Assembly (NCBI RefSeq): GCF_000317895.1
Contig: NC_019567.1
Span: 2,170,001 to 2,234,000, forward strand
DNA from: Bdellovibrio bacteriovorus str. Tiberius
GTDB taxonomy: Bacteria; Bdellovibrionota; Bdellovibrionia; Bdellovibrionales; Bdellovibrionaceae
Reading direction: 5' to 3'
Length of the DNA stretch: 64,000 nt
Shown in pieces: positions 38,940-45,390 of this stretch (positions within the stretch are counted from its first letter, which is position 1; every line of letters starts with the position of its first letter). The position numbers and the translations under genes are program-made. Below the pieces are notes generated by a model that made no database searches, was not told the DNA's origin, and saw nothing but the letters and a program-made list of their open reading frames with translations.

Positions 38940-39470
38940 TTACTGCAAGACCACCAACACCAAAGCGGTGGTGGAACGGGCCATTTCTTCAAACACACCG
39001 GTTTTATTCTGAGCTGGTGCTGCGCCGGTGGCTTCGGCCGAGGATTTCACTTCATAGTCATCGGTTTTGAAAAGTTCACTGAGTTTGGACGGACGCTCGG
39101 TCATATTGTGCGTATCCACAGAATCAATCTTCAGATCCTGCTGCAAAAACTTTTTAATGGAGTCGGCGCGATCTTTGGCCAAAGAAATTTGTTTGGCAGA
39201 GGCTTTTTCATCCTTCGCCGGATACTCGCGATCTCCCCAGCTTAAAACCCGCACGGATTTGATCTTGTCAGACTCACGCAGTGAGGTGAAGAACGAGCGC
39301 AGTTCTTTTTTCTCTTCACCGTTCATATTGTTTTTTCCCGGCTCAAAAAAGACGGGTGCGACCTGTGATGCACCCACCATACGGGCTGTGGCCAGCTCGA
39401 CATCAGGTTGTGCGTAAGTGATGGCGCCTACAAAACCCAAAGCCAGCGCCAGACGAATAATCGAAGTCAT
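38940..39470 (-). CDS. Exported OmpA-like protein with W-x-D-R-E-Y-P motif
   Basis: The 176-residue product has a signal peptide (cleaved around TYAQ). The mature part has the order of OmpA C-terminal domains: V-F-F-E-P-G-K-N-N-M, then VRVLSWGDREYP, then LAKDRADSIKKFL. It is clearly related to the lipoprotein at 41.2 kb but is not itself a lipoprotein. GGAGG precedes the ATG by six bases. A sigma-54-type promoter lies 35 bases further upstream. The residues that bind peptidoglycan in OmpA are not convincing, so the function is open. Confidence 0.8.
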   Translation of the reverse strand: MTSIIRLALALGFVGAITYAQPDVELATARMVGASQVAPVFFEPGKNNMNGEEKKELRSFFTSLRESDKIKSVRVLSWGDREYPAKDEKASAKQISLAKDRADSIKKFLQQDLKIDSVDTHNMTERPSKLSELFKTDDYEVKSSAEATGAAPAQNKTGVFEEMARSTTALVLVVLQ

Positions 39471-39504
39471 GGATACCCTCCTTGTTATCTCACAAGAAAG
39501 GTAA

Positions 39505-39520
39505 TGCAAGGGAACCACCA
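39505..39520 (-). promoter_or_regulatory. Sigma-54-type promoter before the exported OmpA-like gene
   Basis: On the minus strand TGGTGGTTCCCTTGCA has GG and GC exactly 12 bases apart as in TGGCAC-N5-TTGCA. The inverted repeat at 39522-39551 lies immediately upstream. Confidence 0.6.
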
Positions 39521-39551: not shown

Positions 39552-39593
39552 CTGGCGCGAGGCAAATCACCCCGCACCCTGAGGAATTTTCCC

Positions 39594-41003
39594 CTAGACG
39601 GAAACCTGCGGGTCAATTTCCTGCAGTTTGCGATACAGGGTTTTTCGATCAATACCGAGAGCTTTGGCCGTCAGTTCTTTTGCGCGATTTTTTCTTTCAT
39701 AGACGAATTGCACGTATTTCTTTTCCAGCTCGTGCAAAGGTTCGACCTCGTCACCGAAATGAAAAACAAAGGCGTTCTTTTTATCCTCTGTACTTAAGAA
39801 AGCATCCTGCAATGCCGGTTCATCAAAAAGAGTGAAGGCCGCAACATCAATCTCGGCCCCGGATGAAAGAACCACGGACCGTTCAATGGCATTTTCAAGT
39901 TCGCGCACGTTTCCGCGCCAGCCTTGAGTCAGCAAAAACTCTTTGGCGGATTTTTTAAACCCCTGCACCTGAGTGCCATTGATGGCGTTGTATTTTTTCA
40001 GGAAATGCTCTGCCAAAGGCAGAATGTCCTCACGACGATCCCGCAGCGGCGGAAGTTTCACCGGAATCACATTCAGACGGAAATACAAGTCCTCACGGAA
40101 ACGTTTTTCCGCGACTTCCTGACGAAGATCCTTATGGGTCGCCACGATCACGCGCACGTCCACCGAACGGGACTGATTTTCACCCACCCGCTTGATTTCG
40201 CGCTCTTGCAAAACGCGCAAAAGCTTGGCCTGCAAGGACAGATTCAAATCCCCGATTTCATCCAGAAACAATGTGCCGCCGTCGGCTTCTTCAAAAAGAC
40301 CGACTTTCTTTTCCACCGCACCGGTGAAAGATCCCTTGGCGTGACCGAACAATTCAGATTCCAGAAGATTTTCCGGAATGGCTGAACAGTTGATCGCCAC
40401 AAAAGGTTTCTTGGCGCGCGGACTCCAGTTATGAATGGCTTTGGCAAAGACTTCTTTCCCCGTGCCACTTTCACCAGTGATCGAAACGGTCGAAGCGCTC
40501 TTCGCCACCCGGCGGGCCAGATCCACGACTTTGCGAATCGCATCACTTTTTCCGATGATGCCATCAGGATTCACACCTTTGCTGAAATCCAGAGTCTGGC
40601 GCAGGTTTTCATTTTCTTCATTCAAGGAATTAAATTTGAATGCCCGTTGCGCAGAAATTAAAAGCTGAGGGAAATGCAGTGGTTTCACCACAAAGTCATA
40701 AGCGCCGGCATTGATGGCTTCCACCGCCGTGTCGACATCGTTGGAAACGGTGATCAGAATAATCGGAAGCGCCACACCTTCATTGCGAGCAGCTTTGATA
40801 AAATCCAGGCCCGACATCAAGGGCAGATTCAAATCCGTGATGATGGCATCAGGAACCAGCTTTTTGGAAGTGATGGATTTCAAAGCCTCCAAAGGGTCTT
40901 CCATATGCAAAACCTGAATGCCTTTTTGGCGGAAGTACGCTGTTGCAAGCTCTGCCAAATCCAAATCATCTTCAATAAGCAGGATCGTTTTTTGAGAGTC
41001 CAT
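39594..41003 (-). CDS. NtrC-type sigma-54-dependent response regulator
   Basis: The 469-residue regulator has a receiver (phospho-acceptor Asp57 in IITDLNLPLMSG), an AAA+ domain (Walker A GESGTGKE, a GSFTGA variant of the GAFTGA sigma-54 contact loop, Walker B GGTLFLDEIGDL) and a Fis-type helix-turn-helix at the end (KALGIDRKTLYRKLQ). It opens sigma-54 promoter complexes when phosphorylated. GGGGG precedes the chosen ATG. It is flanked on both sides by related envelope genes with sigma-54-type promoters, the likely targets. Confidence 0.95.
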   Translation of the reverse strand: MDSQKTILLIEDDLDLAELATAYFRQKGIQVLHMEDPLEALKSITSKKLVPDAIITDLNLPLMSGLDFIKAARNEGVALPIILITVSNDVDTAVEAINAGAYDFVVKPLHFPQLLISAQRAFKFNSLNEENENLRQTLDFSKGVNPDGIIGKSDAIRKVVDLARRVAKSASTVSITGESGTGKEVFAKAIHNWSPRAKKPFVAINCSAIPENLLESELFGHAKGSFTGAVEKKVGLFEEADGGTLFLDEIGDLNLSLQAKLLRVLQEREIKRVGENQSRSVDVRVIVATHKDLRQEVAEKRFREDLYFRLNVIPVKLPPLRDRREDILPLAEHFLKKYNAINGTQVQGFKKSAKEFLLTQGWRGNVRELENAIERSVVLSSGAEIDVAAFTLFDEPALQDAFLSTEDKKNAFVFHFGDEVEPLHELEKKYVQFVYERKNRAKELTAKALGIDRKTLYRKLQEIDPQVSV

Positions 41004-41060
41004 TAAGCCCCCTTCTGAATATAGAGATAATCCAGCGGGGCATATATCCGCAACCTTTTT

Positions 41061-41085
41061 GTGGCTTTTTGCCACCTTTGGCCAA
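41061..41085 (+). promoter_or_regulatory. Candidate enhancer site for the NtrC-type regulator
   Basis: The palindrome GTGGC-TTTTT-GCCAC (41061-41075), followed by a further GGCCA half-site, lies about 60 bases upstream of the -24 element, between the regulator gene and the target operon. Confidence 0.45.
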
Positions 41086-41134
41086 AAATAAGATTCATAA
41101 GTCTATTTATTTCGTTTTAAGCGGTATTATCTTA

Positions 41135-41150
41135 AGGCACCCCAGTTGCA
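41135..41150 (+). promoter_or_regulatory. Sigma-54 promoter before the OmpA-like lipoprotein operon
   Basis: AGGCACCCCAGTTGCA carries GGCAC and TTGCA with the exact -24/-12 spacing, 56 bases before the start codon. Confidence 0.75.
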
Positions 41151-41206
41151 GCCATATTATAGCAACGGGCTTCTGGCCCCACGGAAAAACACCATAAGGA
41201 GACATT

Positions 41207-41707
41207 ATGTTACGCAACTCGAGCATTTTTCTGACCTTAATCAGCTCTCTTATATTGGGCGCTGGATGCGCTTCTAACTCTGCCAAAACAGAGTCACCAC
41301 AGTCTGCAGAGGCGACCGCTCCCGGCACTACTCATTACACGGTGGTGAACTTTCAGCCCGGTACCGACGAGCTTAGCAAGGAAGAACAAAGCAAAATCCA
41401 TCAGCTTACCGAAGTCGCCGAACGACATGGGGGCATCCAGGAAGTGCGCATTCTTGCCTGGGCCGACCGGGAATATCCCTCGCCAGGGCAGCATATCCCC
41501 GCGGGAGATTCTAAACTTGCTGATGAACGAGCCGCGGCAGTTAAAGCTGTGCTGAAAAAAGATCTGCAACAGATCACGGTGATTGATGAACTTAACGCCG
41601 CAACACACCCGGCAGACACGGAACTTAACAACGCCAAGGCCTCGAAAGCCCTGGTACTGATCACTTACAACACAACAACCCTCAACAAAGGAGAACACCA
41701 TGAATAA
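41207..41707 (+). CDS. OmpA-like lipoprotein with W-x-D-R-E-Y-P motif
   Basis: The 166-residue product has the lipobox LGAGC and should be lipidated. The mature domain parallels the 38.9 kb protein: V-V-N-F-Q-P-G, a helix, VRILAWADREYP, LADERAAAVKAVL. AAGGAG precedes the ATG. The csbD-like gene starts inside its last codons, so it is the first gene of a short sigma-54-driven operon. Confidence 0.8.
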   Translation: MLRNSSIFLTLISSLILGAGCASNSAKTESPQSAEATAPGTTHYTVVNFQPGTDELSKEEQSKIHQLTEVAERHGGIQEVRILAWADREYPSPGQHIPAGDSKLADERAAAVKAVLKKDLQQITVIDELNAATHPADTELNNAKASKALVLITYNTTTLNKGEHHE

Positions 41708-41957
41708 GGATATCATTCAGGGCAAATGGAAAGAGATCAAAGGCGACCTGCATAAAGCCTGGGGTAATATCACCGATGACGAGTGGGATAAAACCAAGGG
41801 TGATGCCACAGCCATCGCGGGTATTTTGCAGCAGAAATACGGCATGGCGAAAGACGAGGCTTCTGAAAAAGTCTCCTCCGTCTTTGCCAAGTACGCCAGC
41901 AGCGCAAGAGAGAGTCTGGATAAACCAACTTCCCCTTCCCGCCGCCCGCAACAGTAA
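41700..41957 (+). CDS. CsbD-family stress protein
   Basis: The 85-residue protein starts with the CsbD signature (I-I-Q-G-K-W-K-E-I-K-G, W-G-x-I-T-D-D-E-W). CsbD-type proteins are small, hydrophilic and general-stress-induced, with unknown biochemistry. The C-terminal half is longer and helical, ending in a basic proline-rich tail. It overlaps the lipoprotein gene and has its own AAGGAG. Confidence 0.9.
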   Translation: MNKDIIQGKWKEIKGDLHKAWGNITDDEWDKTKGDATAIAGILQQKYGMAKDEASEKVSSVFAKYASSARESLDKPTSPSRRPQQ

Positions 41958-42004
41958 CCCAATATTTTCGTTCGTCATTTGACCACGACAGATGACGGAT
42001 AAGC

Positions 42005-42039
42005 GGCCACCCTTTCAAGCATTCTCCGAAGGGGTGGCC
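42005..42039 (+). terminator. Hairpin between the csbD-like and GlsB-like genes
   Basis: Arms GGCCACCC and GGGTGGCC close a 19-base loop; no real T-run follows, so it may be a weak terminator or a processing site rather than a strong stop. Confidence 0.4.
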
Positions 42040-42074
42040 TTCCATCAAACACCTTACACCGAAAGGAGCACATC

Positions 42075-42326
42075 ATGATTGTCGCCATCATTCTGGGACT
42101 GCTGGTGGGAGCCATTGCCAAAATACTTATGCCCGGACGAGACCCCGGAGGCTGGATCATCACCTGCATGCTGGGTATCGCCGGATCTTTTGTCGCGCAC
42201 TTTATCGGAACCCGTGCGGGATATTATGCACCCTATGAGCCAGCCGGCTTTATCGCCTCGGTCTTTGGCTCAATGCTGATTTTGTTTGTGTATCGACTGC
42301 TGGTTGGGAAAACCAGCCACTCATGA
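42075..42326 (+). CDS. GlsB/YeaQ/YmgE-family membrane protein
   Basis: The 83-residue protein has three hydrophobic helices and the family pattern G-A-I-A-K-x-L-M-P-G-x-D-P-G-G-W-I-I-T, ending G-x-x-G. The family (formerly transglycosylase-associated protein) is induced by stress in other bacteria. AAAGGAG precedes the ATG. It is probably cotranscribed with the csbD-like gene and ends convergently over the Hpt gene by six bases. Confidence 0.92.
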   Translation: MIVAIILGLLVGAIAKILMPGRDPGGWIITCMLGIAGSFVAHFIGTRAGYYAPYEPAGFIASVFGSMLILFVYRLLVGKTSHS

Positions 42327-42608
42327 ATACTGCTCCAACAGGGCGGTCACCTTCTGCTTTAGCTCTTGCGCCGCAGACTGCACCGCCTGACCATCTTCCG
42401 CAAGGCAAGCGGCCTCAAGCCTCTTGCCAAGGTCGGTGAGATCATTGAACTCGAAAGTCGCGGCATTGCCTTTGACCTGATGCCCCACTTTTTTTCCCAG
42501 CTCAAACAACTCCGCACCCACAATCATCCCCAACAGGGATTCGAGCTCAGCATCACGACGGCGCAGGTATTTCACTTTTGATTCCACAGGCACAATCATC
42601 GCTGCCAT
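42321..42608 (-). CDS. Histidine phosphotransfer (Hpt) domain protein
   Basis: The 95 residues form a helical Hpt domain with phospho-His43 in GHQVKGNAATF (H-x-x-K-G-N). Hpt proteins pass phosphate between a hybrid kinase receiver and a final regulator. It starts two bases after the hybrid kinase stop, so it is the obvious partner of that kinase. Confidence 0.9.
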   Translation of the reverse strand: MAAMIVPVESKVKYLRRRDAELESLLGMIVGAELFELGKKVGHQVKGNAATFEFNDLTDLGKRLEAACLAEDGQAVQSAAQELKQKVTALLEQYS

Positions 42609-42609
42609 A

Positions 42610-45390
42610 TCAAACCTTGTGATTCAGATAGAAGTAAACTTCCTGCACCAGCAGCTCTCCGGACACCGGCTTGGTGATCTGACCATTGCAGCCTGCTTCC
42701 AGGCAACTTTGCAGTTCTTCATGCAGAGCGTGGGCCGTCAGGGCAATCACGTTGCGAGTGAAGCCCTTTTGACGAATGCGCTTGGTGGCCTCGCGACCAT
42801 CGAATTTGGGAATCTGGATATCCATCAAAATCAAATCCGGATTGTACCGGAAAGCCTGGTCCACAGCCTTTTCACCATCATCCGCAATCATCACATCCGC
42901 CCCGGCACTGCGCAGGAAGTGTTCAAATATTTCCTGATTGTCTTCAGAATCCTCGACCAGCAGGATTCTTGATCCTGCCAGCAGATTTTTCAGATCCAAA
43001 GCACCCCAGTCGATCTCGCGCTTGGGACCGTCATCCAGAGCACTTTCCACCTTCACCACATTTTTTTCAGGGCGCACATTGAAAGCGCGTTTTTCAAGAT
43101 CCTTCAGCGGAATGCGCAGACAGAAGGTGGAACCTTTGCCGATAGAGGATTCCTGCAGGAAAAGCTCCCCGCCCAGAAGTTCAGCCAGACGCTTGGAAAG
43201 TGCCAGCCCCAGGCCGGTGCCACCATACTTGCGGGTCGTGGAAACATCGGCTTGAGAAAACGGCTTAAACAGCATTTCACGGCCTTTTTCACTGATACCG
43301 ACACCGCTATCCTGCACCTGGAATTCCAGGAACTGTTCGCCATGATCACTGGCGTAGGTTTTATACAGCAGCTTCACGCCGCCTTTTTCCGTGAACTTGA
43401 TGGCATTACCCACAACATTCACCAGAATCTGTTTCAGGCGCACATCATCAGTCACCACCATCGACGGCACATTGCTGAGCTTCGCCGTGCTGAACTGGAT
43501 TTTCTTGTCGGAAGCGCGCACTTCCATGATGGATTTGATTTCCTGAATCAGGTTTTCAAGATTCACCTGAGCCATTTCAAAGTGCAGCTTGCCGGCTTCC
43601 ACCTTGGAGATATCCAGAATATCATCAATCAAACGCGCCAGCTCTTTACCGTTGCGTTTAATGCTTTTGACAATTTGCTCTTTGTCGCCGGGCTCCAGAT
43701 CGTCATCTGCCAGAATCTCTGAATACCCTACGATTACTCCCAACGGTGTGCGGATCTCGTGGCTCATGTTGGCCAGGAACGAACTTTTCATAAAGTTCGC
43801 ATCTTCCGCACGACGAAGCAAAATGGCCTTATCATAGGACATGGTGAATTTCCCCACCACACGCTGAACCGCATAGGACTTCATCTCGGAATCCAGCAGG
43901 CTTTTGGGGCCCTTCAACACGATCAGCACCGAGGTTTCCTTGCCGGATTCATGCATGGCCGTGCGGATCAGGTAGTAAGGCGACTGATCCAGAGTTTTAC
44001 GCACGTCGGGTGGTATCATGGCCAGGGCTTTTTGCATGGCCTCGACCGCGCCTTGAGTGGCCAGGATCCCTTCGCCCAGATGGACATCAAATTCACGTGG
44101 CACGTCCAGAATATCCGGGAAGACGTTCAGATTTTTCTGGAAGCGCTTTTCATAAGGGCCTTTTTGCTCACGGACAAAGACAGCGCAATCCTCGACACCA
44201 AATACGCTTTCCATGTGTGTGCAGAACTTTTCAAACAAAGAACTGCCTTCAATGGCCGAAGACAAATCCGCTTGTACCGTGTTCAGCTTGCGGAACATGG
44301 CGATATCCTCGGATTTATTCTTGGAAAGCTGGGACAAAGAGGCTTTATGGCGTTCACTGAACTTCAGGAACTGCTGTGTGGACCACAATGCCAGGAAAAT
44401 CACCGACAACATCACCAGTGTCACAAACGCAAAAAGAATCGGGACATAGCGTTCGTACCAGTTAAAGAAATGCGGCAAAGGCTCAAAGTGAATTGTCCAG
44501 GTTTTATCAAAGACTTTGATTTCACGGCTGACCGAGATATCAGAAACGACCTTGTCTTCAGACTTGGACGGGAAGCGTTCATAGATCGGAATGGTGCGAC
44601 CCATCTTCTGATCATAGATGGTGATCTTATAATTGACCTTTTCATCATAGAACTGCGGCACCCCGAAGGCGCCGTTAAAGAAACGGTTGATACGCACCAC
44701 CGAGTACGCAAACCCCAGAAGCATGTTCTTGGGCTCCACTTCACCCGACACGTCAATCGTCTTGGTCACTGGCAGATAAATCAGGAAACCTTTTTGGAAT
44801 TCCTCCTGATCATCCTGCACCAGGACCACCGGATCAGACACCGCCATCAGATTTCCCAACAGCGCTTTATCCATCGCCGACTGCCGAGTCAGATCCGAGT
44901 ACATATCAAAGCCCAGGGCTTTTTTGTTTCGCCAATCCTGGGGCTGAATCAAAGTAATTGAAGTGTATAAAGGACGCTCCCCTTCGGGCCAGAATTTAAA
45001 ATCGACAAAGCCCTGATCGCGCATGGCGCGCTCTAAACCGGGCACACCGTCTTTTTCAACTTTTTGCGCAAAGCCAATACCCTGCAACCCCGGGAAACGT
45101 CGAAGCACCTGGGAAGAATCCACATAGTCCTGATATTCTTTCGCTGTGGGAATTCCTGCCAACTGGAAAAAGGCGCGTGTGTCCATCAACGACTGACCAT
45201 AGCCGAAGAACTCGCGGTTGATCACCGCCTGAACACTTCCTATTTCTGATTCAAGACGTGCATTCCATTCTTTTTCAAGATGCACCTTAACCATCCACCA
45301 GCTCAGTACGCTGACGGAAATGATAATCAACAGAACAAGAAAGACATTCCATTCATGTGACAGAACGAACAGCCGCTTTAGTCTTTTCAC
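42610..45390 (-). CDS. CHASE-domain hybrid histidine kinase
   Basis: The 926-residue protein has a membrane helix (about 15-37), a periplasmic CHASE domain (about 70-280; FPGLQGIGFAQKV and ALGFDMYSD), a second helix (about 310-332), a GAF-like region, HisKA with phospho-His near 545 in NMSHEIRTPLG, HATPase (DSGVGI, GTGLGLALSKRL) and a C-terminal receiver with phospho-Asp near 853 in LILMDIQIPKFDG. CHASE domains bind small ligands outside the inner membrane. It starts with GTG after AAGGG. With the Hpt gene it forms a phosphorelay module whose final regulator is probably the nearby NtrC-type protein. Confidence 0.94.
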   Translation of the reverse strand: MKRLKRLFVLSHEWNVFLVLLIIISVSVLSWWMVKVHLEKEWNARLESEIGSVQAVINREFFGYGQSLMDTRAFFQLAGIPTAKEYQDYVDSSQVLRRFPGLQGIGFAQKVEKDGVPGLERAMRDQGFVDFKFWPEGERPLYTSITLIQPQDWRNKKALGFDMYSDLTRQSAMDKALLGNLMAVSDPVVLVQDDQEEFQKGFLIYLPVTKTIDVSGEVEPKNMLLGFAYSVVRINRFFNGAFGVPQFYDEKVNYKITIYDQKMGRTIPIYERFPSKSEDKVVSDISVSREIKVFDKTWTIHFEPLPHFFNWYERYVPILFAFVTLVMLSVIFLALWSTQQFLKFSERHKASLSQLSKNKSEDIAMFRKLNTVQADLSSAIEGSSLFEKFCTHMESVFGVEDCAVFVREQKGPYEKRFQKNLNVFPDILDVPREFDVHLGEGILATQGAVEAMQKALAMIPPDVRKTLDQSPYYLIRTAMHESGKETSVLIVLKGPKSLLDSEMKSYAVQRVVGKFTMSYDKAILLRRAEDANFMKSSFLANMSHEIRTPLGVIVGYSEILADDDLEPGDKEQIVKSIKRNGKELARLIDDILDISKVEAGKLHFEMAQVNLENLIQEIKSIMEVRASDKKIQFSTAKLSNVPSMVVTDDVRLKQILVNVVGNAIKFTEKGGVKLLYKTYASDHGEQFLEFQVQDSGVGISEKGREMLFKPFSQADVSTTRKYGGTGLGLALSKRLAELLGGELFLQESSIGKGSTFCLRIPLKDLEKRAFNVRPEKNVVKVESALDDGPKREIDWGALDLKNLLAGSRILLVEDSEDNQEIFEHFLRSAGADVMIADDGEKAVDQAFRYNPDLILMDIQIPKFDGREATKRIRQKGFTRNVIALTAHALHEELQSCLEAGCNGQITKPVSGELLVQEVYFYLNHKV

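Follow-up and report, generated by a model that had tools for sequence, protein, structure and literature searches.

A predicted tandem enhancer and sigma-54 promoter beside an NtrC-type regulator gene of Bdellovibrio bacteriovorus

The window considered here, a stretch of 64,000 nucleotides from Bdellovibrio bacteriovorus str. Tiberius (contig NC_019567.1, positions 2,170,001 to 2,234,000, forward strand), contains the gene of an NtrC-type regulator that lies among the following features, numbered from the first letter of the window.

38940–39470, minus strand: OmpA-like secreted protein, proposed second target (Pfam PF00691, E 4e-5, below the curated cut-off; lipoprotein paralogue)
39504–39520, minus strand: predicted sigma-54 promoter P2, TGGTGGTTCCCTTGCAT (GG-N10-GC behind the regulator in 8 species)
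39559–39573, minus strand: predicted regulator site at P2, GGGGTGATTTGCCTC, with 39 bp from there to the -24 GG of P2 (best-matching site at 38–40 bp in 8 species)
39581–39595, minus strand: possible weak second site at P2, AGGGGAAAATTCCTC, overlapping the regulator stop codon (weaker match; similar position in several relatives)
39594–41003, minus strand: NtrC-type response regulator/enhancer-binding protein, 469 aa, REC–sigma-54 AAA+ (GSFTGA)–HTH_8 (Pfam and orthologues)
41037–41051, plus strand: predicted site A, the distal one of the regulator, GGGGCATATATCCGC, with 84 bp between it and the -24 GG (site B consensus; outer half G.GG.A invariant in 14 relatives)
41061–41075, plus strand: predicted site B, the proximal one, GTGGC-T5-GCCAC, with 60 bp between it and the -24 GG (TGCC.C of its right half unchanged across 14 relatives)
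41135–41150, plus strand: predicted sigma-54 -24/-12 promoter P1, aGGCACCCCAGTTGCa (sequence reading; GG-N10-GC in 14 of 14 orthologous regions)
41207–41707, plus strand: lipoprotein of an OmpA-like family, first gene of the target operon (sequence and paralogue comparison)
41700–41957, plus strand: CsbD-family stress protein (Pfam PF05532, 51 bits)
41970–42048, plus strand: conserved RNA element of two hairpins, in the same operon, after csbD and before the yeaQ-like gene (covariation)
42075–42326, plus strand: transglycosylase-associated (YeaQ/YmgE/GlsB-like) small membrane protein (Pfam PF04226)
42321–42608, minus strand: Hpt phosphotransfer protein, likely the kinase-to-regulator relay (Pfam PF01627)
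42610–45390, minus strand: CHASE-domain hybrid histidine kinase with receiver, likely the relay input (Pfam)

The regulator is a complete group I enhancer-binding protein, with a receiver (PF00072), a sigma-54-activating AAA+ domain (PF00158) and a Fis-type helix-turn-helix (PF02954), each above its gathering score. Its gene begins with an ATG (complement 41001–41003) that has the ribosome-binding site AAGGGGG, and a search for a sigma-70 promoter of this gene found none. The sigma-54-contacting GAFTGA loop reads GSFTGA in this protein (P0001) and in the G010 orthologue; this is a one-substitution variant, presumably equivalent in function. The genome contains an rpoN gene. The nearest solved structures are those of the NtrC-family proteins 4l4u and 1ny5. 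Unlike the named equivalogs, the regulator scores below the respective NCBI cut-offs (394.3 bits against 558.6 for NtrC, TIGR01818; 429 against 714 for AtoC; 378 against 760 for ZraR), and by these it is none of the three. Orthologues that are ~70–97% identical over their best segments occur in 13 other Bdellovibrio genomes, with a recognition helix, GIDRKTLYRKLQ, that is identical between the two clades compared, and NtrC-type matches across the genus number some 40 per genome (28–58). The G004 regulator (L017/L167; 97% identical to the present one) carries a small deletion at about codons 123–131 that causes a frameshift, and the operator and promoters of that genome are intact.

The presumptive inputs of the regulator are encoded close by. 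The Hpt gene adjoins the regulator locus in 14 of 14 genomes, and the hybrid kinase adjoins Hpt here and in 8 of 13 relatives; it is missing from the locus in G010, G013, G015 and G020, and the G016 contig stops too early for its presence to be judged. Hybrid kinase, Hpt and regulator are thus encoded together at the present locus as a phosphorelay gene set with a putative flow of phosphate between them. On the plus strand, the lipoprotein shares 31% identity over 103 aa with the OmpA-like protein on the far side of the regulator gene. In the RNA element downstream of csbD, 12 of 23 pairs show compensatory changes among 6 species. No Rfam family matches it, and its only occurrences found were in this operon, in 7 genomes of Bdellovibrio, one of which (G012) had not contributed to the model.

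Between the regulator start and the lipoprotein ATG lie both P1 and a palindrome. A sequence-only reading of the region had placed GGCAC-N5-TTGCA, correctly spaced, 56 bases before the lipoprotein gene, which direct reading bears out base for base: AGGCACCCCAGTTGCA occupies 41135–41150 with 1 mismatch to TGGCACN5TTGCA, and the -24/-12 element proper (41136–41150) ends in a TTGCA 56 bases ahead of the ATG at 41207. Its placement of GTGGC-T5-GCCAC about 60 bases further upstream, in the region shared with the divergent NtrC-type gene, is likewise exact (GTGGCTTTTTGCCAC at 41061–41075). A C/G-rich, short hairpin-like stretch (cgggctt..ggcccc, ~41166–41184, plus strand) directly follows the predicted transcript start, and most relatives have a similar stretch in that position.

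Taken singly, these strings are unremarkable. Within the window, matches to the -24/-12 consensus, up to 2 mismatches being allowed, number 12, fewer than the mean of 26.3 in shuffles. In pattern searches of the 3.99-Mb genome, the exact palindrome occurs in 6 places, the same number as its reversed control, and the promoter consensus, at no more than 1 mismatch, in 63, against 54 for the control. Palindrome and promoter string each occur at about background frequency, so neither is significant alone, and the exact palindrome was discarded as a genome-wide marker. The suggested hunt for further palindromes near -24/-12 elements yielded, in this genome, no second exact copy with a sigma-54 promoter downstream. 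Such background frequencies are what would be expected if a sigma-54-like string and a short palindrome had merely fallen close to an NtrC-type gene by chance, an explanation that is nevertheless refuted by conservation and to which we assign almost no weight, as the composite is kept in 14 species at fixed spacing and is gone where the regulator is.

The evidence for this comes from 24 Bdellovibrio genomes, 14 with the regulator and 10 without. In all 14, the intergenic region contains G.GG(A/C)A-N27-TGCC.C followed 57–61 bp later by GG-N10-GC, and all 10 genomes without the regulator are also without the composite. In shuffled versions of the 14 intergenic regions it was found 0 times in 28,000, a figure that is partly circular since the pattern was drawn from 13 of the 14 sequences; the genome left out of motif derivation (G016) matches exactly. 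The median pairwise identity of these regions is only 46%, and the invariant columns fall mainly in two outer half-sites, the CAA of one inner half, and the -24 and -12 bases. Genus-wide, GRGGCA-N27-TGCCMCA has 9 of its 11 matches at the regulator gene (reversed control, 0). The full site/promoter unit, sought in 141 genomes of the order, has 12 of 15 matches there (control, 4), a search that missed the present genome and G004 solely through the base after TGCCAC. The predicted site-plus-promoter unit stands out as a phylogenetic footprint and is found together with the regulator. Together with the group I domains and rpoN, this supports the geometry of an NtrC-family enhancer and promoter that had been proposed from the sequence.

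The alignment also alters the view of the operator. The exact palindrome exists in 4 of the 14 regions (the present genome, G004, G021 and G016) and a near-exact one in 4 more (G003, G005, G006 and G009); it is weak or broken in G012, G014 and the clade of G010, G013, G015 and G020, with the left arm lost in G014 and that clade. The original proposal had named, as evidence that would count against it, a palindrome missing from close relatives in which promoter and activator are retained, and the literal palindrome does fail in 10 of 14, whereas the outer half-sites of a tandem operator are invariant. As predicted from the aligned sequences, the conserved element (41037–41075) exceeds the palindrome, whose left arm is its least conserved portion, and the operator consists of a tandem pair of 15-bp sites, offset by 24 bp and sharing the consensus GNGGC-N5-GCCNC. 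The palindrome would be the proximal half of this double operator, because it is chiefly in the outer halves of the two sites that letters are invariant. An IHF site between enhancer and promoter is frequent in such systems, and not obligatory; none (WATCAAN4TTR, up to 1 mismatch) was found in 10 of the 14 regions, the present genome included.

Two other roles for the palindrome can be weighed against these patterns. Terminator-like stems are called in the region, though at shuffle frequency, and the palindrome could in principle act at the RNA level, as a hairpin or terminator in the leader of the regulator gene. However, stem pairing over 13 sequences holds in 67.7% of cells against 66.1% when shuffled (164 of 500 shuffles are as good), and this want of stem covariation counts against a hairpin; moreover, one palindrome arm is nearly invariant and the other drifts, as expected of protein half-sites, so that an RNA role appears extremely improbable. 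Somewhat less remote, albeit still unlikely, is that the palindrome serves mainly as an autoregulatory operator through which the regulator or another factor represses the regulator gene, activation of the divergent operon being secondary. Site A begins ~33 bp from the regulator start codon (~28–47 bp in relatives), so the sites may indeed also set the regulator's own expression. The spacing from site A to the sigma-54 promoter is nonetheless tighter (97–99 bp) than that to the regulator start, and the same sites recur at three other promoters, none of them upstream of the regulator gene.

The first of these is P2, which lies behind the regulator gene, bears the same kind of site and was missed in the sequence-only reading; among the 8 species with P2, its site is weaker in G005, G012 and G014. 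In G012, a ferritin/Dps-like gene follows P2 instead of the OmpA-like gene, and a separate sigma-54 promoter, preceded at 51 bp by GGGGC-ATTAT-GCCCT, stands before csbD. In G010, G013, G015 and G020, a site/promoter unit (49–50 bp) precedes a small secreted-protein gene beside Hpt. The P2, secreted-protein and G012 csbD promoters stood outside the motif definition and offer the strongest support for GNGGC-N5-GCCNC as the regulator's site. The spacing classes (39, 50 and 59 bp) differ by steps of about one helical turn, and 4 independent spacings fall within ~2.5 bp of a 10.5-bp period (p ~0.05), which is no more than suggestive of helix-phased enhancer spacing. Other csbD copies in the genus were considered as further targets and rejected, being without convincing sigma-54-plus-site units, G012 and G016 excepted.

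Within the present genome, GNGGC-N5-GCCNC-N(35-64)-GG-N8-TTGC has 1 match in 3.99 Mb, at this locus (control, 2). A relaxed pattern has 14 (control, 12), of which the 2 at the locus were deemed credible and the other 12 were judged on base composition only. Thus, only the two promoters that flank the regulator appear credible as targets here.

Taken together, the region very likely contains the sigma-54 promoter of a local two-component regulon together with the enhancer at which its activator would bind, as predicted from its sequence. Counted against this reading are the left-arm loss, the G004 frameshift, the loci without a kinase, and a P1 that lacks its genes in two genomes: in G021 (L007, ~200 bp downstream of the regulator start) and G009 (L012), promoter and operator persist, and the lipoprotein and csbD are gone. 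No gene-sized ORF follows P1 in G021, only the RNA element described above, ending in a T-run, and the P1 output there is possibly a small non-coding RNA.

NtrC-family proteins, once phosphorylated, occupy tandem sites as dimers and oligomerise, and so remodel sigma-54 polymerase. By analogy, the CHASE hybrid kinase would sense an envelope or extracellular signal, and phosphate would pass from its receiver to the adjoining Hpt and on to the receiver of the NtrC-type regulator. Regulator dimers would then bind the two tandem 15-bp sites, ~90 and 115 bp upstream of the transcription start, and form an ATPase ring that opens the sigma-54 polymerase held at GGCAC-N5-TTGCA, switching on the lipoprotein-csbD-yeaQ operon; from one good site, the regulator could act on P2 behind its own gene and so on the OmpA-like paralogue. 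Probably, a sigma-54 activator that is fed by an Hpt phosphorelay controls, via tandem enhancers, a local regulon of envelope and stress proteins (OmpA-like lipoproteins, CsbD and YeaQ-like), the role in envelope or starvation stress being suggested by the target protein families.

This kind of switch is ordinary and well known; what is added here is the DNA code, the second target and the conservation in 14 species. The arrangement resembles the group I systems of NtrC, AtoC and ZraR in its receiver-AAA+-Fis helix-turn-helix architecture, sigma-54 promoter, divergent target operon and tandem inverted-repeat sites ~90–115 bp upstream. It differs in that the regulator is probably fed by a separate Hpt and in its apparent targets, CsbD, YeaQ-like and OmpA-like proteins; the operator of enteric NtrC also differs from GNGGC-N5-GCCNC. 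CsbD/YjbJ, YeaQ/YmgE and Dps belong to general stress regulons under sigma-B in Bacillus and RpoS in E. coli. Members of these families share a single control here as well, but that control appears to be sigma-54 with a dedicated activator, local, and confined to Bdellovibrio among the genomes searched. Stress proteins that are under RpoS or sigma-B elsewhere may thus be under sigma-54 and a phosphorelay in this genus. A literature search found no paper tying Bdellovibrio to sigma-54-controlled CsbD or to the present regulator.

An enhancer-binding protein that was uncharacterised so far, from a bacterium that preys on other bacteria, can thereby be provisionally given a DNA-recognition code and a compact regulon, and the same footprinting could decode other NtrC-type regulators of the genus. 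The repeated site/promoter units with swapped genes also constitute a natural test of the enhancer spacing limits on sigma-54 activation. Conceivably, though we hold this as a speculative proposal that is more doubtful than not, the whole is a sigma-54 stress module restricted to Bdellovibrio and driven by a phosphorelay, whose fixed enhancer/promoter units act as sockets for exchangeable genes (OmpA-like lipoprotein, CsbD, DUF1328, ferritin/Dps-like and small secreted protein) at helix-phased spacings of 39, 50 and 59 bp, with a structured non-coding RNA possibly the sole output in G021.

A second csbD paralogue of the present genome (L152, 3456395 region) has a perfect GGGGCAATTTTTGCCCC inverted repeat ~140 bp upstream; the start of this string is called in two relatives, and the spacing of its arms is unlike that of the regulator site.
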